This document shows positions 14,339-50,989 of a DNA stretch of 64,000 bases, one piece after another. The DNA is from Prevotella sp. (GTDB lineage Bacteria > Bacteroidota > Bacteroidia > Bacteroidales > Bacteroidaceae): NCBI GenBank assembly GCA_017618275.1, contig JAFZUS010000004.1:62001-126000 (forward strand). The letters run 5' to 3'. Made by a program: the position numbers and the translations under genes. Every line of letters begins with the position of its first letter. The stretch's first letter is position 1. The notes under the pieces were generated by a model. It saw nothing but the letters and a program-made list of their open reading frames with translations. It made no database searches and was not told the DNA's origin.

Positions 14339-14900
14339 CGTAGTCCACGAAGGAGTAGGGGAAGTCGTGACGGTCATCTACAGGATGGTCTTCACGGCTT
14401 TCTTCTTTCCAACCCTCGTCATAGGACGGGAAGAAAGTGTCAGCCTCTGCTGGGGTGTCGTCGATCTCCGTGAGACAAAGGCGGTCGGCTATTTTCAAAG
14501 CCTGTTTATAGACGCTGGCACCACCGATGATGTAGATTTCTTCGTCGGGGGTGCAGTGGGCGAGGGCCTCTTCCAAAGAGGAATAGAATTCGAGATTAGA
14601 GTTTAGAGTGGAGAGTTTAGAGTTTGCTGCCGCCGTCCTGTCTGGTGAAGGTTTGGCGGTAGCAAACTCTACACTCTCAGTTCTCATTTCTACATTTTTT
14701 ATTTTGCGGCTCAGTACGATGTTACGACGGTTGGGCAGGGCACCCTTCGGTAAAGAGAGATAGGTGTTACGTCCCATGATGATGGTATGGCCCGTGGTGA
14801 GGGCCTTGAAACGTTTCAGGTCGTTGGGCAACCAATAGATGAGTTTGTTCTTATACCCAATGGCCCTGTTCTTGGCTACCGCTGCTATAATGGAAATCAT
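14319..14900 (-). CDS. folA: Dihydrofolate reductase with a 35-residue in-frame repeat insert
   Basis: Reduces dihydrofolate to tetrahydrofolate with NADPH, regenerating the cofactor used by ThyA next door. The DHFR core is intact: IAAVAKNRAIGYKNKL (Met20-type loop), catalytic Asp27 in LPNDLKRFK, GHTIIMGRNTYLSLP, and IYIIGGASVYKQAL. Residues 69-103 (starting NVEMRTESVEFATAK and ending STLNSNL) have no counterpart in DHFR; removing them leaves about 158 residues, the normal size, and joins SRKIK to EFYSSLEEAL. The insert is the palindromic element at 14593-14697. The start codon lies at the end of an AATTAG-type repeat. The gene is third in the rsmF-thyA-folA operon, and its stop overlaps the GH53 gene by 20 bases. 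Confidence 0.94.
   Translation of the reverse strand: MISIIAAVAKNRAIGYKNKLIYWLPNDLKRFKALTTGHTIIMGRNTYLSLPKGALPNRRNIVLSRKIKNVEMRTESVEFATAKPSPDRTAAANSKLSTLNSNLEFYSSLEEALAHCTPDEEIYIIGGASVYKQALKIADRLCLTEIDDTPAEADTFFPSYDEGWKEESREDHPVDDRHDFPYSFVDYVRAEPQ
14593..14697 (-). repeat. Palindromic in-frame element, family A, copy in folA
   Basis: The core arms are at 14619-14634 (AGAGTTTGCTGCCGCC) and 14655-14670 (GGCGGTAGCAAACTCT), a 16-base inverted repeat with one mismatch and a 20-base loop. Outside the core, both arms continue as imperfect AGAGTTTAGAGTGGAGAG-type runs. It is translated as VEFATAKPSPDRTAAANS. Orientation and phase match the copies in rsmF and the P-type ATPase. Confidence 0.85.
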
Positions 14901-14933
14901 AATTTCTAATTCCTAATTTCTATTTCCTAATTT
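14896..14933 (-). repeat. AATTAG-type repeat in the thyA-folA gap, touching the folA start codon
   Basis: On the minus strand the 31-base gap consists of AAATTAGGAAATAGAAATTA words that run straight into the folA ATG as AATTAGAAATTATGATT. The ending AATTATGATT is the same as in the copies at 49379-49424, 56652-56696 and 18502-18537. Confidence 0.6.
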
Positions 14934-15726
14934 AAACGGATACCTCCGCTTTAATATGTGGATGGGGGTCGTAGCCTACTAGTTCGAAGTCCTCGTACTG
15001 GAAGTCGAAGAGGCTCTTGACGTCAGGATTGATCTTCATCGTGGGCAGCGGACGAGGCTCACGGGTCAGTTGGAGTTTAGCCTGTTCGATGTGGTTCAGA
15101 TAGAGGTGGGTGTCGCCCGTGGTATGGATGAAGTCACCTGGCTTGAAACCCGTCACCTGTGCCATCATCTGGAGCAACAGGGCATACGAGGCGATATTAA
15201 ACGGCACACCCAGGAAGGTGTCAGCACTGCGCTGGTAGAGTTGGAGCGACAGACGGTCACCAGCCACGTAGAACTGGAAGATGGTGTGACAGGGAGGCAG
15301 CGCCATCTTGTTGACCTCCGCCACGTTCCAGGCAGAGACAATCATACGACGAGAGTTGGGGTTGTTCTTCAACTGATCCAGTACGTACTGTATCTGGTCG
15401 ATGGTACCACCATTGTAGTCGGGCCATGAACGCCACTGGTGTCCGTAGACAGGGCCCAGTTCACCGTTTTCATCGGCCCACTCGTTCCAGATGCGCACGC
15501 CATGTTCCTGCAGGTATTTCACGTTGGTGTCGCCCTTCAGGAACCATAGCAGTTCGTAGATGATACTCTTCAGGTGGAGTTTCTTGGTGGTCAACAGGGG
15601 GAAACCTTCGTCGAGGTTGTAGCGGCTCTGGGTACCGAAGATGCTGATGGTTCCCGTACCGGTACGGTCGCCTTTCTCGGTACCTTCTGTCAGGATGCGG
15701 TTGAGGATGTCTAAATACTGTTTCAT
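14932..15726 (-). CDS. thyA: Thymidylate synthase
   Basis: Methylates dUMP to dTMP using methylene-tetrahydrofolate, producing the dihydrofolate that FolA recycles. It is 264 residues, the same size as the E. coli enzyme. The nucleophile is Cys146 (ALPPCH), with the phosphate-binding Arg in DRTGTGT (residues 20-26), the [10 protein letters not shown] segment at 126-135 and the substrate-binding [18 protein letters not shown] stretch. The start codon overlaps the rsmF stop as ATGA, so translation is probably coupled. No repeat insert is present here, unlike in both neighbours. Confidence 0.98.
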
Positions 15727-17129
15727 ATATTTATTATTTTTATTTCTTCAGTGGGCAGGTGGGTGGTCTTGATGCGCCAACCCTTGGGATAGAGGTTGTT
15801 GGCGCGATTTCCGATATTCTTCATCGGTCCGAGGGGGATGTTTTTGTAGCAGACGGTGACGATGCCACGTGGGGTGTCTTCTGGGAGTACCAGTGCCTCG
15901 CCACGGAGGTATTTCAGAGCATCGGAGTAGGAGAGGGGGATACGAGGGAAGTCGCCTTGAGGCAAATCGGGGGTGAGGATTTTTAGTTTAGAGTTTAGAG
16001 TGTAGAGTGTAGAGTTTGCTGTCGCCGTCCTATTAGGTGAAGGAATGGCGGTAGCAAACTCTACATTCTCAACTCTACATTCTCCATTTTTGCGCAGCGC
16101 GCAAATAAACAGTCCTTCGCTGCGGGTGATGCCGGGGATGAAGCGATAGACGGGTGCATCGAAGCCTTCGAGCTGCGATCCTGTGATGTGCCACGACGGG
16201 TCGGTAGGCACCTCAAGCACTTCCGCATCGTATTGCTCCATGATCCAGCGCACGTTCTCCTCGTTCTCTTTTGTATTAAAGGTACACGTACTATATATAA
16301 GTATGCCACCAGGATTCAGACACTCCCAGGCATCAGCCACGATTTCGCGCTGCAGTCGCCAGCATTTCTCCACATTTTGCAGACTCCACTCGCTGATGGT
16401 GACAGGATCCTTGCGGAACATCCCCTCTCCAGAGCAAGGCACGTCGCAGAGAATCACGTCGAACTTCGCTTTCGCCTTACGAAAGTCACGGGGGTAGTTG
16501 TTGGTGACGATACAGTCTTTCCAACCCCATTTCGTGATGTTCTCCAACAGGATCTGTGCACGGGTGGGGATGGGTTCGTTGCTGACGAGGGTACTTCCCT
16601 CAGGCAGTACGGTACGGATGGCAGTGGATTTCCCGCCAGGGGCAGCGCAGAGGTCCAGTACTTTTAGTTTAGAGTTTAGAGTGTAGAGTTTAGAGTTTGC
16701 CGCTGCTGTCCCATCAAGCGAGGGTATGGCGGTAGCAAACTCTAAACTTTCAGTTCTCAGTTCTAAACTCCTTAGGATGTGGGTAACGAACATCGAGGCG
16801 GCCTCTTGGACGTAGTAGCAGCCAGCGTGGAAGAGGGGATCGAAGGTGAACTGCGGACGGCCCTCCAAATAAAGGCCTTCCACGCACCAGGGGACTTTAT
16901 TTAGTTTAGAGTGTAGAGTGTAGAGTTTAAAGTTTGCTGCCGCCGTCCCATTAGGTGAGGGTATGGCGGTAGCAAACTCTACATTCTCAACTCTACACTC
17001 TACACTCTTTTTGGGATTGATGCGGATGCTGACGGGGGCATCCTCATCGAATGCTCCCAGAAAGCGGTTGAAGCGCTCTTCGCCCATCAACAGCCTCGTT
17101 TCCCGTATGAAATCCTCTGGTAACTGCAT
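15723..17129 (-). CDS. rRNA (cytosine-C5) methyltransferase of the NOL1/NOP2/Sun family, with three in-frame repeat inserts
   Basis: SAM-dependent RNA m5C methyltransferase, closest in layout to RsmF/YebU. The SAM site is DLCAAPGGK (159-167), the two catalytic-type cysteines are Cys232 (DVPCSGEG) and Cys282 (STCTF), and a C-terminal RNA-binding region follows. Three copies of the same roughly 35-residue peptide interrupt it at about residues 43-78, 121-156 and 349-383. They are all variants of [20 protein letters not shown] and are encoded by palindromic elements. They fall between conserved blocks: before [10 protein letters not shown], between FVTHILRSL and [10 protein letters not shown], and between CALRKNG and [10 protein letters not shown]. 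Removing them leaves about 360 residues. First gene of the operon with thyA and folA; promoter at 17148-17156. Confidence 0.9.
15984..16088 (-). repeat. Palindromic in-frame element, family A, rsmF copy 3 (C-terminal)
   Basis: The left core arm is AGAGTTTGCTGTCGCC at 16011-16026 and the right arm GGCGGTAGCAAACTCT at 16047-16062; outer arms are runs of TAGAGTGTAGAG and CTACATTCTC words. It is read as residues 349-383 of the methyltransferase, with the variant core [12 protein letters not shown]. Confidence 0.85.
16665..16770 (-). repeat. Palindromic in-frame element, family A, rsmF copy 2 (middle)
   Basis: The left core arm AGAGTTTGCCGCTGC starts at 16692 and the right arm GGCGGTAGCAAACTCT starts at 16728, with a loop reading CCATCAAGCGAGGGTAT. 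It is read as residues 121-156, [20 protein letters not shown], immediately before the SAM-binding strand. Confidence 0.85.
16902..17008 (-). repeat. Palindromic in-frame element, family A, rsmF copy 1 (N-terminal)
   Basis: The left core arm AAAGTTTGCTGCCGCC is at 16929-16944 and the right arm GGCGGTAGCAAACTCT at 16965-16980; the loop reads GTCCCATTAGGTGAGGGTAT. It is translated as residues 43-78 of the methyltransferase. The loop is nearly the same as in copy 3, suggesting recent spread or gene conversion. Confidence 0.85.
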
Positions 17130-17147
17130 GATTCGCGCTTTTTCAGC

Positions 17148-17156
17148 GCAAAATTA
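17148..17156 (-). promoter_or_regulatory. Predicted -7 box for the rsmF-thyA-folA operon
   Basis: The minus strand reads TAATTTTGC, a TAnnTTTGC match, 18 bases upstream of the rsmF ATG at 17129. The leader would be about 12 bases. Confidence 0.55.
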
Positions 17157-17163
17157 CTAAAAA

Positions 17164-17187
17164 AGCCACAGATATCACAGATTTTCT
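17164..17187. repeat. Short dispersed repeat, CACAGATT type, copy 2
   Basis: AGCCACAGATATCACAG followed by ATTTTCT, matching the copy at 5345-5369 except for a small central difference. It lies between the divergent rsmF and DUF6249-type promoters. Confidence 0.5.
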
Positions 17188-17200
17188 TAGAATAATTTGA

Positions 17201-17209
17201 TATCTTTGC
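17201..17209 (+). promoter_or_regulatory. Predicted -7 box for the DUF6249-PspC-sigma operon
   Basis: TATCTTTGC matches the -7 consensus exactly. It lies 57 bases before the ATG at 17267. No clear TTTG -33 partner is visible. Confidence 0.55.
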
Positions 17210-17266
17210 AACTAATTTATAATTTGTTACGTCAAACGGCTGTAGAAATCAAAAAAAAACAGAGAT

Positions 17267-17965
17267 ATGAAACAGTATGTAATCGCAATCGCATTGATGC
17301 TCACGCTCGGGCTGAATGCCGACGCAGCAGCACAGAAGCACCGCCACACTCCACGTACGGAGCAGGTGGACTCTACTAAGAACAATCATGACGCCATCGA
17401 AGCCTTTTCTGACACTACAGCCGCTGCTGATGCAGAAGATGCCGAGGATGACAAGTACATCACCTATCGTCGCGGTACGACCTATTCGACCAGCGGTGAC
17501 GTGGAAGAACTCAAGGAAGTGATGGACAGCGTAGGTGGTTTCTTCGCACCTTGGATGGCAGTGAGCATCGTCGCCATCGTCGTCATCTTCCTCCTGGCGC
17601 CGCTGCTGATTATCTTCACCATCTTCTATTTCGTGAACAAGAACAGGCGTGAGCGTTACAAACTGGCACAGATGGCCATCCAGAACGGACAGCCTATCCC
17701 CGATGAGATCCTGAAGGACAATGTCGACTCGAAAATGCTGACCAGTGAGTACCAGTCAGGCATCCGACAGATGTTCGTAGGCATCGGACTCGCCATCTTC
17801 CTTGGCATCATCATCGGTAAACTCGGTATCGGCATCGGCGCCCTCGTTTTCTTCATCGGACTGGGTAAGTGGTTTGTGGCCCGCCAGTCGGGAGATAAAG
17901 GCAACGACCCGTTGAATAACTTTAGGAACAATAATGATAAAAACTCAAATATTTCAGAATTATGA
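17267..17965 (+). CDS. DUF6249-type membrane protein
   Basis: A 232-residue protein with a signal peptide (YVIAIALMLTLGLNADAAA). An acidic, Ala/Asp-rich stretch follows (about residues 44-65), then a membrane helix at about 96-124 (MAVSIVAIVVIFLLAPLLII). A cytoplasmic-looking basic segment contains RRERYKLAQMAIQNGQPIPD, and a second hydrophobic pair at about 168-202 contains repeated GIGLAIFLGIIIGKLGIGIG. The YKLAQMAIENGQPIP pattern is what I associate with DUF6249 proteins next to sigma factors in Bacteroidales; function is unknown. Its stop overlaps the next start as ATGA. The four-gene set suggests an envelope-stress unit in which this protein could act as a regulator, which is inference. 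Confidence 0.75.
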   Translation: MKQYVIAIALMLTLGLNADAAAQKHRHTPRTEQVDSTKNNHDAIEAFSDTTAAADAEDAEDDKYITYRRGTTYSTSGDVEELKEVMDSVGGFFAPWMAVSIVAIVVIFLLAPLLIIFTIFYFVNKNRRERYKLAQMAIQNGQPIPDEILKDNVDSKMLTSEYQSGIRQMFVGIGLAIFLGIIIGKLGIGIGALVFFIGLGKWFVARQSGDKGNDPLNNFRNNNDKNSNISEL

Positions 17966-18153
17966 CAAAGAGATTGATGCGCTCTAATGACAGAGTAATA
18001 GCAGGCGTGTGTGGCGGAATCGCTGAGTATATGGAGTTCGACCCCGTGATGGTGCGCATTGCCTACGCTTTCCTCACCATCTTCACGGCCTTCTGCGGAC
18101 TGATCTTCTACATCGTACTGTGGCTCGTGATGCCTGAGAAAAGACTCTATTAA
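17962..18153 (+). CDS. PspC-domain protein
   Basis: A 63-residue single PspC domain: KRLMRSNDRVIAGVCGGIAE, then a short loop and a membrane helix (FLTIFTAFCGLIFYIVLWLV) ending in MPEK. PspC-domain proteins sit in the inner membrane and respond to envelope stress. It overlaps the upstream gene by 4 bases and lies 6 bases before the ECF sigma gene, so co-translation and a shared role in membrane stress signalling are likely. Confidence 0.92.
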   Translation: MTKRLMRSNDRVIAGVCGGIAEYMEFDPVMVRIAYAFLTIFTAFCGLIFYIVLWLVMPEKRLY

Positions 18154-18159
18154 CGACAG

Positions 18160-18735
18160 ATGGCAGCACTCACTGACATAGCCCTTGTGACACAGGTGGC
18201 GGTTCTCCACAACAAGCGGGCCTTCGACCAACTTGTACGGAAGTACCAGTCACCTGTGCGCCGGTTCTTCTTGAACCAGACACTGGGCGATGAGCAGTTG
18301 AGCGACGACCTGGCCCAGGAGACTTTTATCAAAGCCTACGTGAACATCACCAATTTCAAGGGCATCTCGAGTTTCTCCACCTGGCTCTTCCGCATCGCCT
18401 ACAATGTGCATTACGACTACCGTCGTAAAATGAAAAATGAGAAATTAGAAATGAGTAATGTTGATATCCAGACATGCCCGGAATCAGCCTTTAGTGGTAA
18501 TCATAATTCCTCATTCCTCATTTCTAATTCCTCATTGAAGATGGACCTCTATCATGCCCTCTCACAACTGAAGGAGGTGGAGCGCACCTGTATCACCCTC
18601 CAGTTGATTGATGGCCATCCGATCGACAAGATCAGCGACATCACGGGCCTGCCCCAGAATACCGTGAAGTCGCACCTGAAGCGGGGCAAGGAAAAACTGA
18701 CAGATTATTTAAAAGCCAATGGATATGACCGATAA
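18160..18735 (+). CDS. ECF-type RNA polymerase sigma factor with a repeat-derived linker
   Basis: A 191-residue extracytoplasmic-function sigma-70 factor. Region 2 spans about residues 18-88 (AFDQLVRKYQSPVRRFF, DLAQETFIKAYVNI, FSTWLFRIAYN). Region 4 spans about 128-183 (LYHALSQLKEVERT, ISDITGLPQNTVKSHLKRGK). The linker between them (about 91-127) is longer than usual and is encoded by an inverted repeat at 18429-18537 made of AATTAG/TCATT words; it reads KNEKLEMSN and later NSSFLISNSSLK. The frame stays open and both functional regions look intact. The stop overlaps the next gene, so a membrane-bound partner, perhaps an anti-sigma factor, is translated with it. Confidence 0.93.
   Translation: MAALTDIALVTQVAVLHNKRAFDQLVRKYQSPVRRFFLNQTLGDEQLSDDLAQETFIKAYVNITNFKGISSFSTWLFRIAYNVHYDYRRKMKNEKLEMSNVDIQTCPESAFSGNHNSSFLISNSSLKMDLYHALSQLKEVERTCITLQLIDGHPIDKISDITGLPQNTVKSHLKRGKEKLTDYLKANGYDR
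18429..18537. repeat. AATTAG-type inverted repeat inside the ECF sigma gene
   Basis: The left arm at 18429-18460 (AATGAGAAATTAGAAATGAG and flanks) and right arm at 18502-18537 (ATAATTCCTCATTCCTCATT and flanks) are inverted relative to each other. On the minus strand the right arm ends in GAATTATGATTACC, the same end as the copies in the P-type ATPase and at cydA/cydB. Confidence 0.75.
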
Positions 18736-19111
18736 AGACAATTTATTAATAGACGAGTTCTTCAAGCAGGCTGCGCAGCAGCAGATTGAGGACAACGGGT
18801 TCACGGAGCGGGTGATGATGAATTTGCCCGAATGCGAACAGGAGGAAAAGGCCCACAGGCTGTCGCTTCTCTGGACGCTGTTCTGTGTCGTGGTAAGTGT
18901 GGTGCTTTTCTTCGTCTTTGGTGGCTGGGAGGCCCTGAAGGCCAGCATCATGGTGGCACTCCATGGGGTACTCACCTCGTTGAGCGTCTTCCTTACCACA
19001 GTTCCGACGACTGAGGTTCCTGTGAATCCTGTGGTGCTTCTTTTGCTTGTGGCTTTTGTATTAGTTTACCTTCCGTATCGAACATACCGTAAGTTGTCCG
19101 CAGCACTGTAA
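18725..19111 (+). CDS. Small two-helix membrane protein (DUF5056-like), possible anti-sigma partner
   Basis: About 128 residues. The acidic, soluble N-terminus (LLIDEFFKQAAQQQIEDNGF, then TERVMMNLPE) resembles the start of DUF5056-type proteins found beside ECF sigma factors in Bacteroidales. Two membrane helices follow, near residues 43-65 and 95-118. The ATG at 18725 overlaps the sigma stop; an ATG at 18719 would add two residues. The last 119 bases overlap the convergent PorE-like gene: the second helix (VVLLLLVAFVLVYLPYRTY) is antisense to the Lys/Gln/Glu-rich tail of that protein. An anti-sigma role is inference from position only. Confidence 0.75.
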   Translation: MTDKDNLLIDEFFKQAAQQQIEDNGFTERVMMNLPECEQEEKAHRLSLLWTLFCVVVSVVLFFVFGGWEALKASIMVALHGVLTSLSVFLTTVPTTEVPVNPVVLLLLVAFVLVYLPYRTYRKLSAAL

Positions 19112-21107: not shown

Positions 21108-21228
21108 ACCTATTAATAACGTTTCTCCGTGCTATTTATTGTTTTCAGCGTACAAATACCAAAAATCGGGGTGGTCGTGATGGCCTAAACACCGACGCGT
21201 CTGAGTTTAGATTTTTTTCGTCTTTTTC

Positions 21229-21260
21229 TTGGAAGTTTCGCAAAAAGTTTCTATATTTGC
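21229..21260 (+). promoter_or_regulatory. Predicted promoter of a lipoprotein gene
   Basis: TTG at 21229-21231 and TATATTTGC at 21252-21260, 20 bases apart, fit the -33/-7 pattern. The leader to the ATG at 21298 would be about 30 bases. Confidence 0.6.
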
Positions 21261-21297
21261 AAACGAATAATTGGTGAAACAAAAAAACAAATTAGTT

Positions 21298-22080: not shown

Positions 22081-22116
22081 TGTACGATGAACAAGAATAG
22101 ATACAGACAATAAGAA

Positions 22117-22150
22117 GAGGATGTGCCTATTTTGACACACCCTCCTTTTA
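22117..22150. terminator. Bidirectional terminator between converging genes
   Basis: GAGGATGTG at 22117-22125 pairs with CACACCCTC at 22136-22144 (one mismatch) around a 10-base loop. CTTTTA follows on the plus strand and TTCTTA on the minus strand, so it can serve both the lipoprotein gene and the GH43 gene. Confidence 0.6.
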
Positions 22151-22153
22151 CTT

Positions 22154-25088: not shown

Positions 25089-27242
25089 TTACTGCTTGAA
25101 AGGTACACGGTAGGTGCAGCCTTCTTTCCAACGGGAACAGCCGAAGGCCGTGTTGCCTTTGATGATATGCCCCTGACCGCAGAGGGGGCAGGGGGCTCCT
25201 TCTACGGGAGTATCGGACCCTTCGACAGGCTCAGGAACCGTTTTCTTGCGGGTGGCCTTGGGCTTGGGTGCGGTTTCTGTCTTGTGCGATTTCACTTTCT
25301 TGAGTTCTGCATCGGAGAGCACGGTGACTCGTCGGTTGCTGTTGTCTGCCATCACCTCGCTGACAATCTCCGAGACCTGTGCCTTGAGTTCCTCGATGAA
25401 CTGCTGAGCATCGTATTTCTGGTGCTCGATGTCGCGGAGTTTCTTTTCCCAGATGCCCGTGAGTTCGCAACTCTTCAGAAGTTCCTCGCGGATGAGGTCG
25501 ATGAGTTCGATGCCCGTCGGTGTGGCGATGAGGCGTTTGCGGTCGCGCTTGATGTAATGGCGCTTGAAGAGGGTCTCGATGATGGATGCACGTGAAGAAG
25601 GGCGCCCGATGCCGTTCTCCTTCATGGCGGCTCTTAGGGTCTCGTCTTCCACGAACTTGCCAGCCGTCTCCATTGCACGGAGCAGGGAGGCTTCATTATA
25701 ATAGGGTGGGGGCGTGGTCCATTTCTCCGTGAGGGTGGGCTTATGGTCGCCTGATTCGCCTTTGACGAAGGTGGGGAGGGTACGCTCTTCAGCCGCCGAA
25801 CCCCCTAAGTTAGGGGATTGGGGGTCTGAAGAATTGTCATTTTCTCCCTCGTTCAGACCCCTGTCGCCCCCTAACTTAGGGGGCAAGGTCACTCGCCAGC
25901 CCGGGTCGAGGATCTCCTTGCCAGTGACCTTGAATTCGATGGCTTTGCTAGGCTTTTCTAGGTTATTCCTAGGATCACCTAGGTCTTCCCTAGGATTGCC
26001 TAGGACCTCCCCTAAGACGGTGGTTGTTGAGAATTTGCAATCCGGCAAGAAGACAGCGATGAATCTCCTGGCTACGAGGTCGAAGACTTTTTGTTCGGCA
26101 TCGGTGAGGTTCTTGGGGATGACACCCGTGGGGATGATGGCATGGTGGTCGGTGACCTTCGAGGTGTCGAAGACGCGCTTCGACTTCTTCAGTGGTTTGC
26201 CTCCGATGGGCTTGATAAACTCCGCGTAGGGCGCAACACCTCCGAATTGTGTCTGGTAGAGGCCGTTGAGCGTCTGCGGACACTTGGGGTAGATATCGTC
26301 GGAGAGGTACTGCGTGTCGACACGGGGGTAGGTGGTGTATTTCTTCTCGTAGAGGCTCTGGATGAGGTTGAGCGTCATCTCAGCGGAGAAGGCGAACTTG
26401 CGGTTGCAGTCGACCTGCAACGAGGTGAGGTCGTAGAGTTGTGGCGGCTGTTCCTTGCCTTCCTTCTTCTCCACCTTCGTTACGGTGAAGGGTTTGCCCT
26501 CGATGTTGGCGAAGGCTTTTTCACCCTCTTCCTTCGAGGTGAATTTCCCTGATGTGGCGGTGAAGGTGGTGTCGCGATAGACCGTGGCCAGCACCCAGTA
26601 GGGCTCCGGCTTGAAGTTCTCAATCTCTTTCTGGCGGTTGACGATGAGGGCGAGGGTAGGGGTCTGCACACGTCCGATGGAGAGCACCTGACGGTTCTGA
26701 CCGTACTTCAGCGTGTAGAGACGTGTGGCGTTCATACCTAAGAGCCAGTCGCCGATGGCACGGGAGAGACCTGCGAGGTAGAGGGGCTGGTAGTCGGCCT
26801 GGTCCTTCAGGTTGGCGAAGCCCTCACGGATGGCCTCGTCAGTCATCGACGAGATCCAGAGTCGTTTGACGGGACACTTGGCCTGTGCTTTCTGCATCAC
26901 CCACCGTTGGATGAGTTCTCCCTCCTGTCCCGCGTCACCGCAGTTCACGATACCGTCGGCAGCCTGCATCAGGCGTTCGATGGTGGCAAACTGTTTCTTG
27001 ATGCCGTTGTCATCGATGAGTTTGATGCCGAAGCGCTGCGGCACCATCGGCAGTTGCGTCAGGGCCCACGCTTTCCAGGCCTGGGTGTAGTCGCCCGGTT
27101 CCTTCAACGTACAGAGGTGTCCGAATGTCCACGTTACCTGATAGCCGTTACCTTCCATATACCCGTCGTGCGAGGTGGTTGCCCCGATAATCCGTGCGAT
27201 ATCCCTCGCCACGCTGGGCTTCTCTGCAATGCATACAATCAT
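25089..27242 (-). CDS. topB: DNA topoisomerase III with several in-frame repeat segments
   Basis: Type IA topoisomerase that decatenates DNA. The Toprim domain begins CIAEKPSVARDIA, with acidic residues in NCGDAGQEGELI. The catalytic tyrosine is Tyr305 in YTTYPRVDTQYLSDD. The protein ends with a basic linker and one zinc ribbon (CPLCG, then GCSRWKEGC). I start at the ATG at 27242; an upstream TTG would lie inside the promoter. Three repeat-derived segments are read in frame: LGNPREDLGDPRNNLEKPSK (about 414-433), a block near 455-500 containing PPKLGGDRGLNEG and SPNLGGSAAEE, and PEPVEGSDTPVEG just before the zinc ribbon. The first two lie in the top-domain region between EFxVTGKEIL-type blocks and PTLTEKWTTPPPYYNEASL. 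Confidence 0.93.
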   Translation of the reverse strand: MIVCIAEKPSVARDIARIIGATTSHDGYMEGNGYQVTWTFGHLCTLKEPGDYTQAWKAWALTQLPMVPQRFGIKLIDDNGIKKQFATIERLMQAADGIVNCGDAGQEGELIQRWVMQKAQAKCPVKRLWISSMTDEAIREGFANLKDQADYQPLYLAGLSRAIGDWLLGMNATRLYTLKYGQNRQVLSIGRVQTPTLALIVNRQKEIENFKPEPYWVLATVYRDTTFTATSGKFTSKEEGEKAFANIEGKPFTVTKVEKKEGKEQPPQLYDLTSLQVDCNRKFAFSAEMTLNLIQSLYEKKYTTYPRVDTQYLSDDIYPKCPQTLNGLYQTQFGGVAPYAEFIKPIGGKPLKKSKRVFDTSKVTDHHAIIPTGVIPKNLTDAEQKVFDLVARRFIAVFLPDCKFSTTTVLGEVLGNPREDLGDPRNNLEKPSKAIEFKVTGKEILDPGWRVTLPPKLGGDRGLNEGENDNSSDPQSPNLGGSAAEERTLPTFVKGESGDHKPTLTEKWTTPPPYYNEASLLRAMETAGKFVEDETLRAAMKENGIGRPSSRASIIETLFKRHYIKRDRKRLIATPTGIELIDLIREELLKSCELTGIWEKKLRDIEHQKYDAQQFIEELKAQVSEIVSEVMADNSNRRVTVLSDAELKKVKSHKTETAPKPKATRKKTVPEPVEGSDTPVEGAPCPLCGQGHIIKGNTAFGCSRWKEGCTYRVPFKQ
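25217..25241 (-). repeat. PEPVEG-coding repeat inside topB
   Basis: On the minus strand it reads GGTTCCTGAGCCTGTCGAAG followed by GGT. Words of this kind (CCTGAGCNTGTCGAAGG) recur in many bacterial genomes and, when coding, give PEPVEG-type peptides. Here it lies in the flexible linker before the zinc ribbon and is followed by a second partial PVEG. Confidence 0.6.
25801..25883. repeat. Inverted repeat with CCCCCTAAGTTAGGGG arms inside topB
   Basis: The left arm 25801-25830 (CCCCCTAAGTTAGGGG, then GGGGGTCTGAA) and right arm 25852-25883 (TTCAGACCCCTG, then CCCCCTAACTTAGGGGG) are about 90 percent complementary over 30 bases, around a 21-base loop. Each arm also contains its own small palindrome. 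It is read in topB as PPKLGGDRGLNEG through SPNLGGS. Confidence 0.75.
25948..26011. repeat. CTAGG-phased repeat (21-base unit) inside topB
   Basis: CTAGG starts at 25948, 25958, 25969, 25979, 25990 and 26000, a spacing of 10 or 11 bases. In coding terms this is a 7-codon unit repeated three times: LGNPRED, LGDPRNN, LEKPSKA. CTA and AGG codons here are unlike the codon choice in the rest of topB. Confidence 0.7.
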
Positions 27243-27250
27243 ATCAGCCT

Positions 27251-27259
27251 GCAAAGTTA
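27251..27259 (-). promoter_or_regulatory. Predicted -7 box for topB
   Basis: The minus strand reads TAACTTTGC, an exact consensus match, only 8 bases upstream of the ATG at 27242. The predicted transcript would start within a few bases of the start codon and be nearly leaderless. Confidence 0.55.
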
Positions 27260-40979: not shown

Positions 40980-41012
40980 ATTCTCTATTTTTATCATTAT
41001 TTCATTTTTGCA

Positions 41013-41765: not shown

Positions 41766-41783
41766 CTTTACAATTATATCTTT

Positions 41784-42803: not shown

Positions 42804-42824
42804 ACGATTATCTTAAAAAACACT

Positions 42825-42833
42825 GCAAAGTTA
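42825..42833 (-). promoter_or_regulatory. Predicted -7 box for the nine-gene glycan operon
   Basis: The minus strand reads TAACTTTGC, an exact match, 21 bases upstream of the kinase ATG at 42803. A second near-match, TATATTTTGC, lies just upstream. No convincing TTTG -33 box is present. Confidence 0.55.
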
Positions 42834-42916
42834 CGCAAAATATACGTGAAAAACTTGAAGTCTTAGCGTAAAAACGAAAAAGAAAGGCGTAAAGAGGAAT
42901 CGCGAGAGTATATGAT

Positions 42917-43921: not shown

Positions 43922-43940
43922 AGTTATTCATCTTTTGTGT

Positions 43941-43949
43941 GCAAAGATA
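43941..43949 (-). promoter_or_regulatory. Predicted -7 box for the Gfo/Idh gene
   Basis: The minus strand reads TATCTTTGC, an exact match, 20 bases upstream of the ATG at 43921. TTG about 22 bases further upstream is a possible -33 box. Confidence 0.6.
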
Positions 43950-43998
43950 CACATTATTTTTGGAAATACTGCAACGAAAACGTAATTTTTTCTGTCTT

Positions 43999-44034
43999 TT
44001 TGTCGTTAATTTGAAAGATTTGTTGTACTTTTGC
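43999..44034 (+). promoter_or_regulatory. Predicted promoter for the porin-symporter pair
   Basis: TTTG at 43999-44002 and TACTTTTGC at 44026-44034, 23 bases apart. The leader to the ATG at 44076 is about 35 bases. Confidence 0.55.
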
Positions 44035-44075
44035 ACCCGCATGAACTAAACAACCAATTGTAAACAAATGAAAAG

Positions 44076-45164: not shown

Positions 45165-45178
45165 TTAAAAAAGAAAAT

Positions 45179-46702
45179 ATGATTATCAAAGTATTATTGA
45201 CGGTAATTTTCCTGGTCGTGATGATTAGTGTGGGTGTGTACTCACGCAAGCAGGCCAGAAGTGTCGACGGTTTCGTGTTGGGTGGTCGTGCCGTAGGTCC
45301 CTGGCTCACAGCCTTTGCCTTCGGAACCTCCTATTTCTCTGCTGTGGTCTTTGTAGGCTACGCTGGACAGTTCGGATGGAAGTATGGTCTTTCGTCTGCG
45401 TGGATTGGTATTGGCAACGCCATCATCGGTTCTCTCTTGGCGTGGCTCATCTTAGGTCGTCGTACCAAACTGATGACGCAGCATATTGAGTCTCGTACGA
45501 TGCCAGATTTCTTTGGCACCCGTTTCAACGATCAGGGACTGCGTGTGGTGGCTTCTGTCATTGCCTTCGTGTTCCTGATCCCCTATACGGCAGGTGTATA
45601 TAGCGGTATTTCCCGCCTCTTCGAGATGGGCTTCGATATCCCTTACGAGTATTGTGTCATCGTGATGTCCATCCTGACGGCAGTCTATGTCATCATCGGC
45701 GGTTATAAGGCTACGGCGATGAACGACTTCATCCAGGGTATCATCATGCTCTTCGGCATTGTGGCTGTCATCCTCGCCGTGCTGAATGCACAGGGTGGTC
45801 TGGCTGCTGCAGTGGATAAACTGGCAGTGATTCCCTCTGATGCCGATCCTGCCGTGAATGGTGGCTTCGCCTCGTGGTTCGGCCCCGATCCCTGGGGACT
45901 CCTGGGTGTGGTCATCCTGACCTCACTGGGTACGATGGGACTGCCCCAGATGGTGGGTAAGTTCTATTCGATTACCGACGAGAGTGCCATCAAGCGTGGT
46001 ACCGTCATCTCAACCATCTTTGCCTTCATCGTGGCAGGTGGCTGTTATTTCCTCGGAGGTTTCGGACGTCTCTATGACCCGGTGATCAATGAGGCGACGG
46101 GTAAGATAGCCTTCGACTCCATCGTGCCTGCCATGCTGGTCACGCTGCCTGATGTGCTGATTGCCCTCGTGGTGCTGCTGGTGCTGAGTGCATCGATGTC
46201 AACGTTGGCTTCGCTGGTGCTGACTTCCAGTTCTACGATGACCCTCGACCTGATCTATCGCGACAAGAAGTCGTTGCCTGGCGAGGTGGAGGATGGTACC
46301 ATCGATGATATCGTGGCTGAGAAGATCGAGCGTCGTAAGGTGGTGGTGATGCGTGTGCTCATCATGTTCTTCATCGTCATCTCCCTGTTGATAGCCCTGA
46401 ATCCCCCGACATTCATCGCCCAACTGATGGGTATCTCTTGGGGTGCGTTGGCTGGTGCCTTCCTCGCACCGTTCATGCTGGGTCTCTACTGGCGTGGTGT
46501 CACAACGGCTTCCGTCTGGGCTTGTTTCATCTGGGGCGTGGGTCTCACCGTCATCAATATGTTGGCTGGCAACCCCATCAATCCCATCAACTGTGGTGCC
46601 ATCGCTATGGTGGGTGGCTTCCCGGTGGTGTGGATCGTCAGTCTGTTGACGAAGAAACTGCCCAGGCAGACAGTCGACACCATCTTTGAGTGCTACAAGT
46701 AG
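45179..46702 (+). CDS. Sodium:solute symporter family permease
   Basis: A 507-residue inner-membrane protein of the SSS family with about 13 helices. Family signatures are SVDGFVLGGRAVGPWLTAFAF after helix 1, then GTSYFSAVVFVGYAGQFG, a helix 5-6 segment AVYVIIGGYKATAMNDFIQG, and GTMGLPQMVGKFYS. The GGYKA..DFIQ motif is highly conserved in these Na+-coupled carriers. The substrate cannot be read from sequence. It is followed 25 bases after the stop by a strong terminator, making a two-gene operon with the porin. Confidence 0.93.
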   Translation: MIIKVLLTVIFLVVMISVGVYSRKQARSVDGFVLGGRAVGPWLTAFAFGTSYFSAVVFVGYAGQFGWKYGLSSAWIGIGNAIIGSLLAWLILGRRTKLMTQHIESRTMPDFFGTRFNDQGLRVVASVIAFVFLIPYTAGVYSGISRLFEMGFDIPYEYCVIVMSILTAVYVIIGGYKATAMNDFIQGIIMLFGIVAVILAVLNAQGGLAAAVDKLAVIPSDADPAVNGGFASWFGPDPWGLLGVVILTSLGTMGLPQMVGKFYSITDESAIKRGTVISTIFAFIVAGGCYFLGGFGRLYDPVINEATGKIAFDSIVPAMLVTLPDVLIALVVLLVLSASMSTLASLVLTSSSTMTLDLIYRDKKSLPGEVEDGTIDDIVAEKIERRKVVVMRVLIMFFIVISLLIALNPPTFIAQLMGISWGALAGAFLAPFMLGLYWRGVTTASVWACFIWGVGLTVINMLAGNPINPINCGAIAMVGGFPVVWIVSLLTKKLPRQTVDTIFECYK

Positions 46703-46727
46703 TCAGTGAGTCTAAATATCCGTTCAG

Positions 46728-46763
46728 AATTGCATGCGCCGAGTTCGGAGCATGCAATTTTTA
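46728..46763 (+). terminator. Terminator of the porin-symporter operon
   Basis: AATTGCATGC at 46728-46737 pairs perfectly with GCATGCAATT at 46750-46759, and the 12-base loop contains CCGA and TCGG that can extend the stem. TTTT follows. Confidence 0.8.
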
Positions 46764-46973
46764 GGTTACGAGGGTGCCTCTGAGGTCTCAGACGTGCTTC
46801 TGCTTGGTTACAAGGGGGCCTCTGAGGTCTCAGACGTGCTTCTGCGTGGTTACAAAGGTGCCTCCGCGCGCTCGGAGGCTCTTCTGCGAGGCAACAAGGG
46901 TGCCTCCGCGTGCTCCGTGGCTCTTCTGCGAGGCAACGAGGGTACCTCCGCGCGCTCAGCGTCTCTTCTGTGC
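46764..46973. repeat. Minisatellite of five 42-base units
   Basis: Five exact-length units start at 46764, 46806, 46848, 46890 and 46932, each beginning GG(T/C)(T/A)ACNA and containing GCCTC and CTTCTG. Units 1 and 2 share a TCTGAGGTCTCAGA palindrome and unit 3 has CCTCCG paired with CGGAGG. The unit is 14 codons, so frames stay open on both strands across the array, but no gene is called. With the terminator before and a promoter after, this accounts for the 373-base gap 46703-47075. Confidence 0.9.
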
Positions 46974-47009
46974 GTTTCCTCGGACTTTCGCAAAAAAAGG
47001 ACGAAAACA

Positions 47010-47042
47010 TTTGGACGTTTCACAGATTATTCGTATTTTTGC
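47010..47042 (+). promoter_or_regulatory. Predicted promoter of the dockerin-tailed surface protein
   Basis: TTTG at 47010-47013 and TATTTTTGC at 47034-47042, 20 bases apart, are a full match to the Bacteroidetes consensus. The leader is about 28 bases. Confidence 0.7.
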
Positions 47043-47075
47043 GCCATAAAAGCAATCAAATTAAACTAAAAGCGT

Positions 47076-48842
47076 ATGAAACGAATTCTAACTTTAGCAG
47101 TCATGGCCCTGCTGCTCACCAGCGCAAAGGCCAGCGTAGTGATTAATGCTACGAACTTCCCAGACCCCGTACTGAGGGAGGCACTCGTTGAGTGTGGAAT
47201 TGATGCCGACGGTGACGGCATCCTCACAGACGAGGAGATTAAGAATGCCACAGATTACATTCAGCTTGAAGGATGCAAGAACCTGAAAGGTCTGGAGTAT
47301 CTGAAGAATATGAAATTCATCGGCCTTTACGGCAATGAGGAGTCGTACAGCAGCATCACTTCTTTCGATGCCTCGAAGTTCCCCAAGCTTGAGCGGCTTG
47401 ACATTCATGATTACGCCATTACCTCGCTCGACGCAACCTACTCGAAGATGCTTGGGTCGGTTGAAATTGCCAGGTGTCGTGAGTTCACCTCCATCAAAGT
47501 GGATTCGAAACGTGATGATTTAGGCGTTTTCCTAAACGATCTGCCCAAACTGACGAGCATGGAGAACTGTGTGTTCAACCATGTTTCAGTTGTTGAATTC
47601 TACAAGACCGGCATCCAGGACATAGACATGAGCGACCACCCCACGTTGGAAAGTCTCTGGGTGAAGGGCGATGACGAAGAATTTGGGGGCGACTATGAAC
47701 TGAACTCCATCAACGTGTCGGGCTGCAACAACCTTTGGGATCTCCATATAGACCATGTTAAACTTCAAAGCGTCCGTCTCAATGCGCTGCCTATGTTCTA
47801 TGACATTTCCCTATACTTTTGTCACACGACAAACTTGGCTTTAGAGAACATGCCGAATTTGGGTGGTATCACATGCAGCGGTTGTGAAATCCGTAACCTC
47901 ACCATCAAAGGTTGTCCTGTGCTGACAGGCGTTAGTTGCGCTGACAATAGCCTGCACAACCTGATTATCGACGACAGCCCTGGTCTTTACAGCCTGCATG
48001 TCGAGAACAATATGCTGATGTGGCTCGACATGAGCAACGTGAAGAGAGAGGTGGGTGATGATACCTATTGGTATTCTGCTGAAAATCAGCATCCCAGCGC
48101 GGTGGCCTACAAACTCTCCGCTACGGAGGTTGGTCTGTTGGTACATGAGCGCTTCGACGTGGAGCGTGTGCTCAACCTGAAGGCTAACGGCAAGAGTGTG
48201 ACTCCCGCCTGGTCAACCATCGACGGCAAGAAATACTTCGTCTTCTCCAACGAAGGCGCGAACGCCGACGCCCTCGTCGGCAAGAAGACCACCTACGAGT
48301 ACGAGACCAAGTGGCCCTATAAGTGGATTTCAGGCTCGGAAAATACGAAGGACAATAACCTGCCCGTAAAACTGAATGTGACGAAAGTTGAAAAACTCCC
48401 CTCTTGGATCAAACTCTCCTCGACGGCGACGCTGGCGAGTCCCATCGACGGTACGCTGACACCTCCTGAGGTGCAGCGCTCCGACAAGTACGACGGCAAA
48501 CTGACGTGGAAGTCGAGCAACGAGAAAGCCGTGAAGGTGAATGCCGAGACGGGTGCAATCACCATCGTTGGCCCGGGTAAGGCTACCATCACCGTCACTG
48601 GTGCTGAGACCGACTACCGAACGGCTCCCGCCAGCGTGAGTTACAAGGTGGTGATCTACACGCTCGGTGATGCCAACGGCGACGGTAGCATAGATGCCAA
48701 CGATATCGTGGAAATCGTCAACTATCTGACGGGTAAGCCATCAGCCAAATTCGTCCTCCAGGCTGCTGATGCCAACCAGGACAATAAGGTGGATATTGCC
48801 GATATCGTCATGATAGCCAACATTATTTTGGCAGAAAAGTAG
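47076..48842 (+). CDS. Secreted leucine-rich, Ig-like protein with dockerin-type C-terminus
   Basis: A 588-residue secreted protein with a signal peptide (ILTLAVMALLLTSAKA). Residues 25-60 include an EF-hand-like DADGDGILTDEEI. A long region of degenerate leucine-rich repeats follows (about 60-320: LNSINVSGCNNLWDLHIDHV, LENMPNLGGITCSGCEIRNL). Next is a BIG2-type Ig domain (about 440-525: WKSSNEKAVKVNAETGAITI, VGPGKATITVTG). The C-terminus has a duplicated calcium loop, DANGDGSIDANDI and DANQDNKVDIADI, the type I dockerin pattern. The same tail type closes the BspA-like protein at 53323. No cohesin is seen here; in Prevotella such tails occur on many surface proteins and their partner is not established. 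Confidence 0.85.
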   Translation: MKRILTLAVMALLLTSAKASVVINATNFPDPVLREALVECGIDADGDGILTDEEIKNATDYIQLEGCKNLKGLEYLKNMKFIGLYGNEESYSSITSFDASKFPKLERLDIHDYAITSLDATYSKMLGSVEIARCREFTSIKVDSKRDDLGVFLNDLPKLTSMENCVFNHVSVVEFYKTGIQDIDMSDHPTLESLWVKGDDEEFGGDYELNSINVSGCNNLWDLHIDHVKLQSVRLNALPMFYDISLYFCHTTNLALENMPNLGGITCSGCEIRNLTIKGCPVLTGVSCADNSLHNLIIDDSPGLYSLHVENNMLMWLDMSNVKREVGDDTYWYSAENQHPSAVAYKLSATEVGLLVHERFDVERVLNLKANGKSVTPAWSTIDGKKYFVFSNEGANADALVGKKTTYEYETKWPYKWISGSENTKDNNLPVKLNVTKVEKLPSWIKLSSTATLASPIDGTLTPPEVQRSDKYDGKLTWKSSNEKAVKVNAETGAITIVGPGKATITVTGAETDYRTAPASVSYKVVIYTLGDANGDGSIDANDIVEIVNYLTGKPSAKFVLQAADANQDNKVDIADIVMIANIILAEK

Positions 48843-48873
48843 TGTTTGCAACCAAGTTGCACGGAATGTGCCG

Positions 48874-48882
48874 TACCTTTGC
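48874..48882 (+). promoter_or_regulatory. Predicted -7 box for the P-type ATPase gene
   Basis: TACCTTTGC, an exact match, lies 29 bases before the ATG at 48911. The -33 region is ambiguous, with TTTG 25 and TTG 14 bases upstream. No metal-regulator operator is recognised. Confidence 0.55.
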
Positions 48883-48910
48883 AGCGTGAAATCAATAAAA
48901 CTGCAAAGAT

Positions 48911-50989
48911 ATGGCACATTCTCATTCTCATGAACATTGTGAAAGTTGCTCTCACGAACATCACCACGAGCACGAACATCACCACGAGCATTCGCTGAAG
49001 CGTCAACTCTGGCTCATCGGCATTACCGTCGTATTGCTGATCATCGCCGTCTTGATAGAACGCAACCTGAACCTGACAGTCTGGCAACTGATGCTTGTCT
49101 ATCTCGTACCTTATTTGTTGATAGGCCACGAGACGCTGCACGAGGCGTGGGAGGGAATCACCCACGGCGATGCCTTCAATGAGCACTTCCTCATGTCCGT
49201 CGCTACCATCGGTGCCCTCTGCATCGGTTTCCTGCCAGGGGCAGAGACGGAGTTCCCTGAGGCGGTATTCGTGATGCTCTTCTTCCAGGTCGGTGAACTC
49301 TTCGAGGGCTATGCCGAGGGTAAGAGTCGCGAGAGCATCGCACACCTGATGGACATAAGACCAGATGTTGCACATCTGGAAATTAGGAATGAGGAATTAG
49401 GAATTAGAAATTATGATTACCAGACAAGCATAAAGGATGTTTCTCCTGAGGAGGTTGGAGTAGGGGAGACCATCGTGATCCGTCCGGGTGAGAAGGTGCC
49501 TCTCGATGGTGTGGTTATCGAAGGGGCGTCAGCGCTGAACACCGTGGCACTGACGGGTGAGTCGTTGCCCCGTGATGTGAATGTAGGCGACGAGGTCATC
49601 TCTGGCTGCGTCAACCTGTCGGGTGTCTTGAAAGTGCGCACCACGAAGGCCTTTGGCGAGAGTACCGTCTCGAAGATCATCCGCCTCGTGGAGAATGCAG
49701 GCGAACATAAGTCGCAGAGCGAGACCTTCATCACCCGCTTTGCCCGTGTCTATACGCCTATCGTGGTGTTCGCCGCCCTGGCTCTCGCCATTATTCCCAC
49801 ACTACTTGGCGGCAGTTTCGCCACGTGGTTGTATAGGGCTCTGATGTTCCTCGTTGTGTCTTGTCCCTGCGCCTTGGTGATCAGTGTGCCCCTCACCTTC
49901 TTTGGAGGTATAGGAGGTGCCTCGCGCAAGGGCATCCTCATCAAGGGGGCCAACTATATGGACGTATTGGCGAAGGTCGATACCGTTGTCTTCGACAAGA
50001 CCGGCACCCTCACGCATGGTCAGTTTGCAGTCACCGCCGTACATTCTGATAACGTTGAGTCTAGAACGGAGAGTGTAGAGTTTGCTGCCGCCACTCCTTC
50101 TGCAAATGGGACGGCGGTAGCAAACTCTACACTCTCAACTCTCAACTCTCAACTCCTCCATCTTGCTGCTCATGTCGAGCACTTTTCCACCCATCCCATC
50201 GGGGCAGCCCTGCGTGATGCCTTCCCTGATGAGGCGACGGACGGTTGTCAGGTCTCTGAGGTTGAGGAGATCGCAGGTCATGGCATCCGTGCAAGAGTAG
50301 GGGATCAGATTGTCTGTGTGGGTAATACGAAGATGATGGATGCCGTTGGTGCGAAATGGCACGACTGCCCTCATTGTGGACATGGACATCAATCTGTTTC
50401 CGGTACCATCATCCATGTAGCCATCGATGGCGAGTATGCGGGCCATATCGTCATCAACGACCAGATCAAGGCTGACAGTGCTGAGGCGATTGCCAGCCTG
50501 AAGGAACTGGGTGTAAAGAAGACCGTCATGCTGACTGGCGACCGCAAGGAGGTAGCCGACAATGTGGCCAAGACCCTCGGTCTCTCGGAATACCACGCCG
50601 AACTCCTCCCCGCCGATAAAGTCAAGTATATAGATAGTTTAAATTCTACATTCTCAAAGGTTGCCTTTGTGGGTGACGGTATCAACGATGCCCCTGTACT
50701 GGCCCGTGCCGATGTGGGTATCGCGATGGGTGGTCTCGGTTCCGATGCCGCCATCGAGGCAGCCGATGTGGTGCTGATGGACGACAAACCCTCGAAGATA
50801 GCCCTTGCCATCCGTATGGCCCGTCGTACACTCTCTATAGCCCGTCAGAATGTGGCTTTTGCCATTGGCGTCAAGGTGGCTGTGCTCATCCTCGCAGCCT
50901 TCGGCATCGCCACCATGTGGCTCGCCGTCTTCGCCGACGTGGGTGTCACCGTCCTTGCCGTCCTCAACGCCATGCGTGCCCTCCGCTAA
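48911..50989 (+). CDS. Heavy-metal P1B-type ATPase (zinc/cadmium exporter type) with two repeat inserts
   Basis: Exports divalent metal ions using ATP. The 692-residue protein begins with a His-rich metal-binding stretch (HEHHHEHEHHHEHS) instead of an HMA domain. Ion site motif CPC is at 318-320 (SCPCALVISVP), phosphorylation Asp362 in FDKTGTLTHG, nucleotide-binding HP at 428-429 and GDGINDAPVLARADVGIAMG near the end. The TGE motif is in VALTGESLP. Two repeats are translated in frame. One is a family B segment at about 157-170 (EIRNEELGIRNYDY) in the A domain region; the other is a family A palindrome at about 381-416 (VEFAAATPSANGTAVANS) at the start of the nucleotide-binding domain. The core motifs are otherwise intact. 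aat begins 13 bases downstream. Confidence 0.94.
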   Translation: MAHSHSHEHCESCSHEHHHEHEHHHEHSLKRQLWLIGITVVLLIIAVLIERNLNLTVWQLMLVYLVPYLLIGHETLHEAWEGITHGDAFNEHFLMSVATIGALCIGFLPGAETEFPEAVFVMLFFQVGELFEGYAEGKSRESIAHLMDIRPDVAHLEIRNEELGIRNYDYQTSIKDVSPEEVGVGETIVIRPGEKVPLDGVVIEGASALNTVALTGESLPRDVNVGDEVISGCVNLSGVLKVRTTKAFGESTVSKIIRLVENAGEHKSQSETFITRFARVYTPIVVFAALALAIIPTLLGGSFATWLYRALMFLVVSCPCALVISVPLTFFGGIGGASRKGILIKGANYMDVLAKVDTVVFDKTGTLTHGQFAVTAVHSDNVESRTESVEFAAATPSANGTAVANSTLSTLNSQLLHLAAHVEHFSTHPIGAALRDAFPDEATDGCQVSEVEEIAGHGIRARVGDQIVCVGNTKMMDAVGAKWHDCPHCGHGHQSVSGTIIHVAIDGEYAGHIVINDQIKADSAEAIASLKELGVKKTVMLTGDRKEVADNVAKTLGLSEYHAELLPADKVKYIDSLNSTFSKVAFVGDGINDAPVLARADVGIAMGGLGSDAAIEAADVVLMDDKPSKIALAIRMARRTLSIARQNVAFAIGVKVAVLILAAFGIATMWLAVFADVGVTVLAVLNAMRALR
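49379..49424 (+). repeat. AATTAG-type repeat (family B) inside the P-type ATPase gene
   Basis: AAATTAGGAATGAGGAATTA and continuing words end in AATTATGATTACC. It is translated as EIRNEELGIRNYDYQ between PDVAHL and SIKDVSPEEVG, where relatives normally have a short direct connection. Confidence 0.7.
50053..50158 (+). repeat. Palindromic in-frame element, family A, copy in the P-type ATPase
   Basis: The left core arm AGAGTTTGCTGCCGCC is at 50078-50093 and the right arm GGCGGTAGCAAACTCT at 50113-50128, complementary except for one position, with outer AGAGTGTAGAG and CTCTCAACTCTCAACTC runs. It is the only copy on the plus strand, yet relative to its gene it has the same orientation and reading phase as the four minus-strand copies. 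Confidence 0.85.

Follow-up and report, generated by a model that had tools for sequence, protein, structure and literature searches.

In-frame palindromes in conserved genes of a Prevotella genome share their ends with cassettes that carry an S23 gene

How do long palindromes come to lie in frame inside conserved bacterial genes, and from what might they derive? The question is raised by a 64,000-nucleotide stretch of a Prevotella sp. genome (assembly GCA_017618275.1, contig JAFZUS010000004.1, positions 62,001 to 126,000; here called the window, with positions counted from its first letter), in which an initial annotation had reported palindromes of about 105 bases in folA, rsmF (three copies) and a P-type ATPase gene. 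We find that the phenomenon is real and larger than first reported, and that derivation of the palindromes from cassettes built around an S23 gene is well supported, the ends of the palindromes recurring as the arms that enclose S23 genes in this genome and in others of the genus.

A search of the window for the core arm at up to three mismatches gave 10 matches, which form five inverted pairs (14619-14670, 16011-16062, 16692-16743, 16929-16980, and 50077-50128), and window shuffles, with a mean of 0.5 matches and a largest count of 2, rule out a chance origin. The arm of these elements, which we call class A, consists of the core GTTTGCTACCGCC and about five seven-base units, and across the five 110-bp copies identity to the reference copy is 71-90%. 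The host frame reads through every copy, in DHFR, in RsmF three times, and in a heavy-metal P-type ATPase, so that core pairs and frames together confirm the in-frame palindromes first reported (Table 1). The outer GAGTGTAGAG runs are present as described, but they are tandem 7-mers, reported by Tandem Repeats Finder in 8 of the 10 arms, six of these with 4.7-4.9 units. The ATPase copy, like the gene that holds it, runs in the opposite direction to the other four. Of the same orientation and same reading phase that the initial annotation had assigned to all copies, the single phase holds; the shared orientation says little because the element is a palindrome, and in some copies the antisense strand also encodes a similar peptide. 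With predicted RNA folds of -39 to -61 kcal/mol (z of -5.8 to -11.3), the five copies would form very stable hairpins as RNA. Rfam returned no family at its gathering score between positions 14000 and 19000; let-7 (35.1 bits, gathering score 53.5) and mir-1017 (24.6 bits, gathering score 50) were set aside as chance hairpins.

The same arms occur around a gene. Two outward-facing class A cores, arranged as in the palindromes but 400-443 bp apart, enclose an open reading frame (ORF) of about 120 aa encoding an S23 protein in five genomes (G000, G023, G041, G055, and G097), and a sixth, G066, has an S23 gene with the same class A arms. The corresponding protein of the genome to which the window belongs (C83) matches PF05635 (S23, "23S rRNA intervening sequence protein"), TIGR02436 ("four helix bundle protein") and the solved chain 2rld, which is labelled uncharacterized. 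This genome has eight PF05635 matches, six of them above the cut-off, and most of its S23 genes are flanked by inverted tandem arrays of differing units; locus L086 shows none, and the closeness of L082 to the end of its contig precluded the flank test. Among five of its S23 genes tested, the arms of four (classes A, B, C, and D) are matched by window arrays above shuffled-arm controls, and many window arrays have the size of S23 flank arrays. What the initial annotation lacked is that the arms of the element also flank an S23 gene of its own genome and that window arrays match three further S23 genes there. The five class A S23 cassettes at L060-L063 and L084 lie in two different gaps, near genes that we take to be radC-, paaD-, lpxH-, and glycosyltransferase-like. 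A sister group of S23 genes, marked by the core ATTTGCTACCGC and units of the GTGAAAA type, was seen at L398, L400, L406, L408, L417, and L420 (genomes G032, G037, G094, G041, G090, and G031) and may account for the class A core variants with AAATTCT.

A core-arm search of the genome and its relatives, with hits classed as coding or not and by phase as the initial annotation had proposed, detected the class A family in 33 of 100 genus genomes, that of the window included (pattern GGCGGTAGCAAACTCT, one mismatch). In the latter genome, which consists of 213 contigs, the arm matched 82 times when three mismatches were allowed (a reversed control, 20 times) and 28 times when two were allowed. The loci fetched for a census, comprising this genome and chosen stretches of G013, G022, G023, G031, G041, G055, and G097 and hence a part of all copies, held 52 full palindromes, 39 in ORFs and 13 elsewhere. 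The ORF rule (at least 120 aa, with 15 aa to either side of the copy) overlooks copies close to the end of a locus or ORF, such as the one at position 36 of L073, inside a 481-aa ORF, and some cores counted as unpaired are full palindromes with one decayed arm; the copy at 16663..16772, one arm of which has three mismatches, entered the census in this way. By the first-listed ORF, 38 of the 39 coding copies are in one phase, and the 39th (L073) also has a 379-aa ORF in that phase. Core spacing is 1 mod 3 in all 39 coding palindromes and is split 7/3/3 among the other 13. Unpaired cores lie in ORFs in 33 of 37 cases, with strand-phase settings of 19, 8, and 6; 27 of these 33 half elements are in the standard peptide phase on either strand and 6 in another. 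We take the hosts of class A copies in this genome to include ligA (L004), murF (L006), recG (L028), an M16 peptidase gene (L007), and rseP (L018), and the hosts of half elements to be ispG-, cbiB-, and trmH-like genes.

The constant phase had been ascribed to selection for a tolerated peptide or to mobility tied to coding sequence; the constancy is borne out, and a simpler cause suffices. Since 7 is not divisible by 3, each frame of a run of TAG-bearing heptamers meets a stop at every third unit. The full element has essentially one open frame, which accounts for the constancy. Among the 39 coding copies, heptamer 2, where TAG would be in frame, reads TAG in none of the sense-left arms (a count partly imposed by choosing copies that lie in ORFs) and in 26 of the right arms, whereas the left/right counts for heptamers 1, 3, and 4 are 27/26, 26/20, and 27/22. 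The contrast between the arms shows what selection had to remove, and phase constancy accordingly needs no insertion preference.

The sites at which the elements sit were compared with those of relatives. DHFR has matches in 93 of the 100 genomes, and the listed matches cover residues 1 to about 70 and about 102 to 190 but not the segment between, except in G060, G042, and G045; two of these three, G060 and G045, were aligned and have no class A element. Alignment with G013 indicates that the folA element replaces about 10 residues of a variable loop, and the same loop holds another 7-mer array in L112 and another insert in L094. Viral DHFRs were sought for a structure alignment, and none was found. 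At the ATPase site, eight of nine aligned relatives have a short native loop of about 5 residues, compared with 33 in the window's gene, and the ninth, G022, has a different insert; the ATPase matches of G033, G041, and G097, outside the alignment, also go without the segment. In RsmF of G013, site 1 is a plain loop, and sites 2 and 3 hold the arms with no hairpin centre, still in frame. RsmF loops of other species carry other arrays or, in G018, an unrelated long palindrome. That palindrome (GGACGGTTCTTTTGT...ACAAAAGAACCGTCC; L298 and L310, at sites 2 and 1, respectively) is likewise in frame, and we take it for a repetitive extragenic palindrome of the kind associated with tyrosine transposases (REP/RAYT type). 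At these sites the relatives aligned show either their native loop or another insert, in agreement with the earlier claim that the inserts fall between conserved blocks, and in none of them was the same segment encoded by unrelated DNA. These are permissive loops, which seem to have been hit more than once.

Paired arrays accompany most of the S23 genes tested. Inverted arms that beat all 40 dinucleotide shuffles were found at 58 of 62 genus S23 genes (from the best-scoring matches listed, limited to distinct proteins with sufficient flanking sequence; L137 and L082 were too short to be kept) and at 61 of 78 in named genomes of many phyla (the best 80 of at least 571 relatives, less L214 and L246), whereas control intervals shifted by 900 bp had arms in 6 of 113 and 2 of 143 cases. 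Within the same best 80 of at least 571, the two closest named relatives of one genus S23 protein are from Prevotella and Prevotellaceae. A later set gave inverted arms at 37 of 40 S23 genes by mononucleotide shuffles, a Geobacter S23 locus (L228) has 7-mer arms, and viral contigs searched with narrow class A S23 peptide patterns, which find near relatives only, yielded one relative (L333) with 7-mer arms. Of 91 strong arm pairs, 57 had a best period of 7 or 14, 28 one of 8 or 16, and 6 some other value; the upstream arm had a positive GC skew in 87 pairs and a negative one in 3. The closer two S23 proteins are in sequence, the more similar their arms tend to be (Spearman 0.335 over 59 genes), with none of 999 permutations as high. 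In the mostly open-access literature, surveyed largely by title, we found no link between S23 genes outside rRNA and flanking tandem arrays.

Array length is set in repeat units. Tandem Repeats Finder detected 7- or 8-type arrays in 230 of 283 S23 flanks, with median lengths of 31 nt (7-type) and 35 nt (8-type), or 4.4 units each, and a tail of much longer arrays; later flanks had arrays in 75 of 80 cases versus 8 of 77 control flanks, with medians of 31 nt (66 7-type arrays) and 36 nt (9 8-type arrays). A length of four periods plus about 3 nt fits five evenly spaced contacts for 7-mers and 8-mers alike. The solved S23p of Xanthomonas is a homopentameric toroid (PMC4990558), and array length would match the need for five contacts of a pentameric S23 ring.

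Copy number follows the matching S23 gene most clearly for class A. Core matches number 22, 13, 29, 4, 18, and 24 in the six genomes with a class-A-armed S23 gene and at most 9 in the other 94, 67 of which have none (Mann-Whitney p ~1e-6, uncorrected for relatedness and completeness). Octamer array matches number 130 in the window's genome, 45 in G065, 33 in G004, 32 in G053, 30 in G078, and one or two in three others, and an octamer-armed S23 gene was seen in three of these octamer-rich genomes (the window's, G004, and G078). The prediction that every array-rich genome holds a matching S23 gene was borne out only in part for the octamer and GTTCATA classes.

Several observations weigh against a derivation from S23 cassettes or against a role of S23 in their spread. 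Class A copies occur in genomes that have no class A S23 gene (9 in G022 and 8 in G013); octamer arms were seen on none of the four S23 genes counted in G065 and on none of the three examined among five counted in G053; for the GTTCATA class a matching S23 gene was found in 3 of the 9 richest genomes (G071, G033, and G008), the S23 genes of the others having been examined in part, and G027 has a GTTCATA-armed S23 gene but no arrays besides its own arms. By the dinucleotide-shuffle test, arms are absent from 4 of 62 genus and 17 of 78 named S23 genes, and the two arms of an element are each other's best match in only 34 of 59. The fifth S23 gene tested in the window's genome, L080, has window matches only inside class A elements. 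The cassettes examined contain no other evident gene and so none for cutting and joining, no excision or new insertion was observed, and no clean target-site duplication was seen at the folA, ATPase, and RsmF sites, where the relatives are diverged; the folA and ATPase elements, moreover, replace about 10 and about 5 residues. The mixed results among the classes could be explained in any of three ways: the S23 gene was lost, a related S23 acts, or S23 plays no role.

On balance we regard it as quite likely that the palindromes derive from S23 cassettes, and their common ends suggest that they split off, without the gene, from a selfish element that is itself poorly understood. The parent would have the order [~5 tandem 7-mers]-[core]-S23 gene-[core]-[inverted 7-mers]. 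Its S23 protein, a homopentameric ring in the solved relative, might bind the G-rich strand of an arm in single-stranded form, each subunit contacting one repeat, and promote the copying or insertion of hairpins bearing that arm, both in cis and in trans; the cut-and-join chemistry would fall to replication or repair enzymes of the host. Coding copies would survive where the open frame matches that of the host and a tolerant loop accepts about 30 added residues. Taken as a whole, with this account of mobility and survival, the palindromes are probably ORF-less derivatives of S23 cassettes, related to the intervening sequences (IVSs) of rRNA and akin to miniature inverted-repeat transposable elements (MITEs). 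We infer the mobilising step, and its operation by S23 in trans is possible but doubtful. More tentative still, and rather unlikely in our estimation, is the wider proposal that S23 proteins are five-fold sequence readers, with one tandem repeat per subunit, that copy the hairpins carrying it and would then account for the heptameric arrays long left unexplained across bacteria, act as the mobility factor of rRNA IVSs, and supply new peptide loops to conserved enzymes. We know of no engine for protein-coding palindromes. If the proposal were true, this would be a class of mobile element without a known transposase or reverse transcriptase. On the reading that we prefer, derivation from S23 cassettes, one architecture would tie together heptameric repeats, S23p, and protein-coding palindromes, and some annotated bacterial enzymes would carry peptides of about 30 residues of selfish origin.

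Other explanations account for parts of these data. The arrays might be binding sites of an autoregulating S23 DNA- or RNA-binding protein, the dispersed arrays its regulon or slippage copies, and the palindromes inverted pairs of sites; paired tandem 7- and 8-mer arrays of Geobacter have been read as sites of a global regulator (PMC2700814), polymerase slippage is cited for unexplained heptameric repeats (PMC4692102), and the failed octamer predictions in G065 and G053 fit such sites. We nevertheless hold this to be unlikely, given copies that are in frame in conserved coding sequence and have a core and spacer besides the repeats, an array length mostly near 4.4 units (with some far longer exceptions), and the absence of the whole ATPase-site segment from eight of nine relatives aligned. 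It is less likely again that a Y1 (REP/RAYT-type) transposase or a reverse transcriptase mobilises the elements in trans, with S23 as an accessory resembling Avd. PF05635 does resemble Avd (PMC10053308), and among 12 S23-bearing genomes Y1_Tnp was found in 8 and RVT_1 in 3, with one match to each in the window's genome. RVT_1 was not found in 9 of the 12, including the nearly complete G004, G046, G053, G055, and G079, nor Y1_Tnp in G008, G046, G079, and the incomplete G023, and neither enzyme was retained as an obligatory partner.

That the palindromes are an independent, Rickettsia-like coding element without ties to S23, between two arms of which an S23 gene landed by chance, would agree with in-frame palindromes of Rickettsia and other MITEs being described with no known parent of the S23 kind in the relevant part of PMC2229807. 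It is made very improbable by the arms themselves, which are particular to each S23 group, track protein identity in their similarity, and recur in the same pattern across many phyla. As for an artefact of assembly or binning, to which a draft genome of many contigs with repeats is open, the initial annotation had named assembly error as a possible refutation; we consider it unlikely because G013 has an orthologous copy of another element of the genome (L018/L287) and arms at two of the RsmF sites. With a further orthologous or same-site insertion in separately assembled genomes (L001/L079) and a single phase in 39 ORF copies, the chance of such an artefact is close to negligible. Derivation from S23 cassettes remains the reading that we prefer.

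The window contains further arrays (Table 1). The class B palindrome lies in a gene that we presume to encode an extracytoplasmic function (ECF) sigma factor. A second 7-mer array (ATTGAAG) is in frame at 11635-11667 in the same TonB-receptor-like gene as the class C array, and no matching S23 gene was identified for it in this genome. Octamer arrays AAAGGTAAAAAAGTAA stand on both sides of one gene, at 61242-61274 and 62256-62290, and L428 (G047) is an S23 gene with similar arms. At 25958-26011, CCTAGG recurs at 10-11 bp steps inside the ORF at 25089-27254(-), and a long S23-like gene of this genome at L087 has CCTAGG arms. Two longer-period repeats were also noted: about eight copies of a 78-bp repeat at 53957-55397, by appearance an ordinary repeat protein, and five 42-bp tandem repeats at 46722-46973.

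Table 1. Palindromes, arrays, and host frames in the window
Feature	Position	Strand	Basis or remark
DHFR (folA) host frame	14319-14900	-	family search
RsmF host frame, three copies	15723-17129	-	family search
Heavy-metal P-type ATPase host frame	48911-50989	+	family search
Class A palindrome (arrays, core, and hairpin), in frame, folA/DHFR	14590..14699	-
Class A palindrome, third in RsmF protein, in frame	15982..16091	-	G013 here: arms without centre
Class A palindrome, second in RsmF protein, in frame	16663..16772	-	G013 here: arms without centre
Class A palindrome, first in RsmF protein, in frame	16900..17009	-
Class A palindrome, in frame, heavy-metal P-type ATPase	50048..50157	+
Class A-like 7-mer array without core, in frame, presumed cydB-like gene	56158..56191	-	weaker match: 16.6 vs shuffled maximum 12.6
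Class B palindrome (7-mers ATGAGAA/AATTAGA, core GGTAATCATAATT), in frame	18428..18543	+	arms match S23 gene of the same genome at L085
Class B half element, in frame, same heavy-metal P-type ATPase gene as class A copy	49380..49422	+
Class B array at and before gene start (presumed TonB-dependent-receptor-like)	13234..13288	.
Class B half element at folA start	14891..14933	.
Class B array between two genes (presumed cydA- and cydB-like)	56646..56692	.
Class C array (AATGCAC), in frame, TonB-receptor-like gene	11475..11506	-	matches S23 gene of the same genome at L081
Class D inverted 8-mer arrays ~77 bp apart, intergenic, into listed start of downstream ORF	59592..59769	.	matches S23 gene of the same genome at L083

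The nearest known systems each share a part of this architecture. In Coxiella, the ends of the rRNA IVS form a stem, and its S23p ORF is preceded by two or three tandem heptamers, S23p being without known function as of 2016 in the part of PMC4990558 cited here. The present element resembles the 23S rRNA IVSs of Coxiella and Leptospira, as far as they are described there, in its terminal inverted repeats with a long stem, the S23p ORF inside, and the adjoining heptamers. It has the long terminal-repeat stem (predicted) and, in its long form, the S23p ORF (in the six genomes with class-A-armed S23 genes), and it resembles IVSs also in having long ORF-bearing and short palindromic forms. Short, ORF-less IVS forms occur in Salmonella. 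RNase III cuts IVSs out of the RNA; for the present element, long stems are a prediction from folding. Unlike an IVS in a 23S rRNA helix, 39 of 52 class A copies are in protein ORFs and kept in frame, those of the window in folA, rsmF, and the ATPase gene, and, since none of the copies examined lies in 23S rRNA, we do not file the element as an IVS. Rickettsia palindromic elements (RPEs) and other MITEs occur in frame in proteins, and RPEs are also intergenic (PMC2229807); likened by that description, the present element agrees with RPEs in being a small palindrome in frame in conserved proteins and elsewhere intergenic, which upholds the analogy drawn in the initial annotation, and differs in its organism, in arms made of tandem 7-mers, and in the gene-bearing parent, the S23 cassette, proposed here. 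As in MITEs, terminal inverted repeats are common to the palindromes and the gene-bearing S23 parent. Bacterial heptameric arrays are over-represented and, in the passages of PMC4692102 that bear on them, without detailed study, and array families of 4-5 units, genic as well as intergenic, have been interpreted in Geobacter as regulatory elements (PMC2700814); the arrays of Xanthomonas (GGGAATC), Nostoc, and Geobacter share with ours the tandem 7-mers, some inverted pairs, and both genic and intergenic positions, and no S23 connection is made for them in the relevant parts of these two papers. The coding palindromes of PMC2996958 are likewise thought to spread but differ in their 25-residue tandem repeats and, in the part of that paper cited, have no S23 link, and Avd of diversity-generating retroelements is similar by the PF05635 resemblance (PMC10053308), unlike the present case in that RVT_1 was not found in 9 of 12 S23-bearing genomes. 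The present element joins features of IVSs, heptameric arrays, and RPEs/MITEs.

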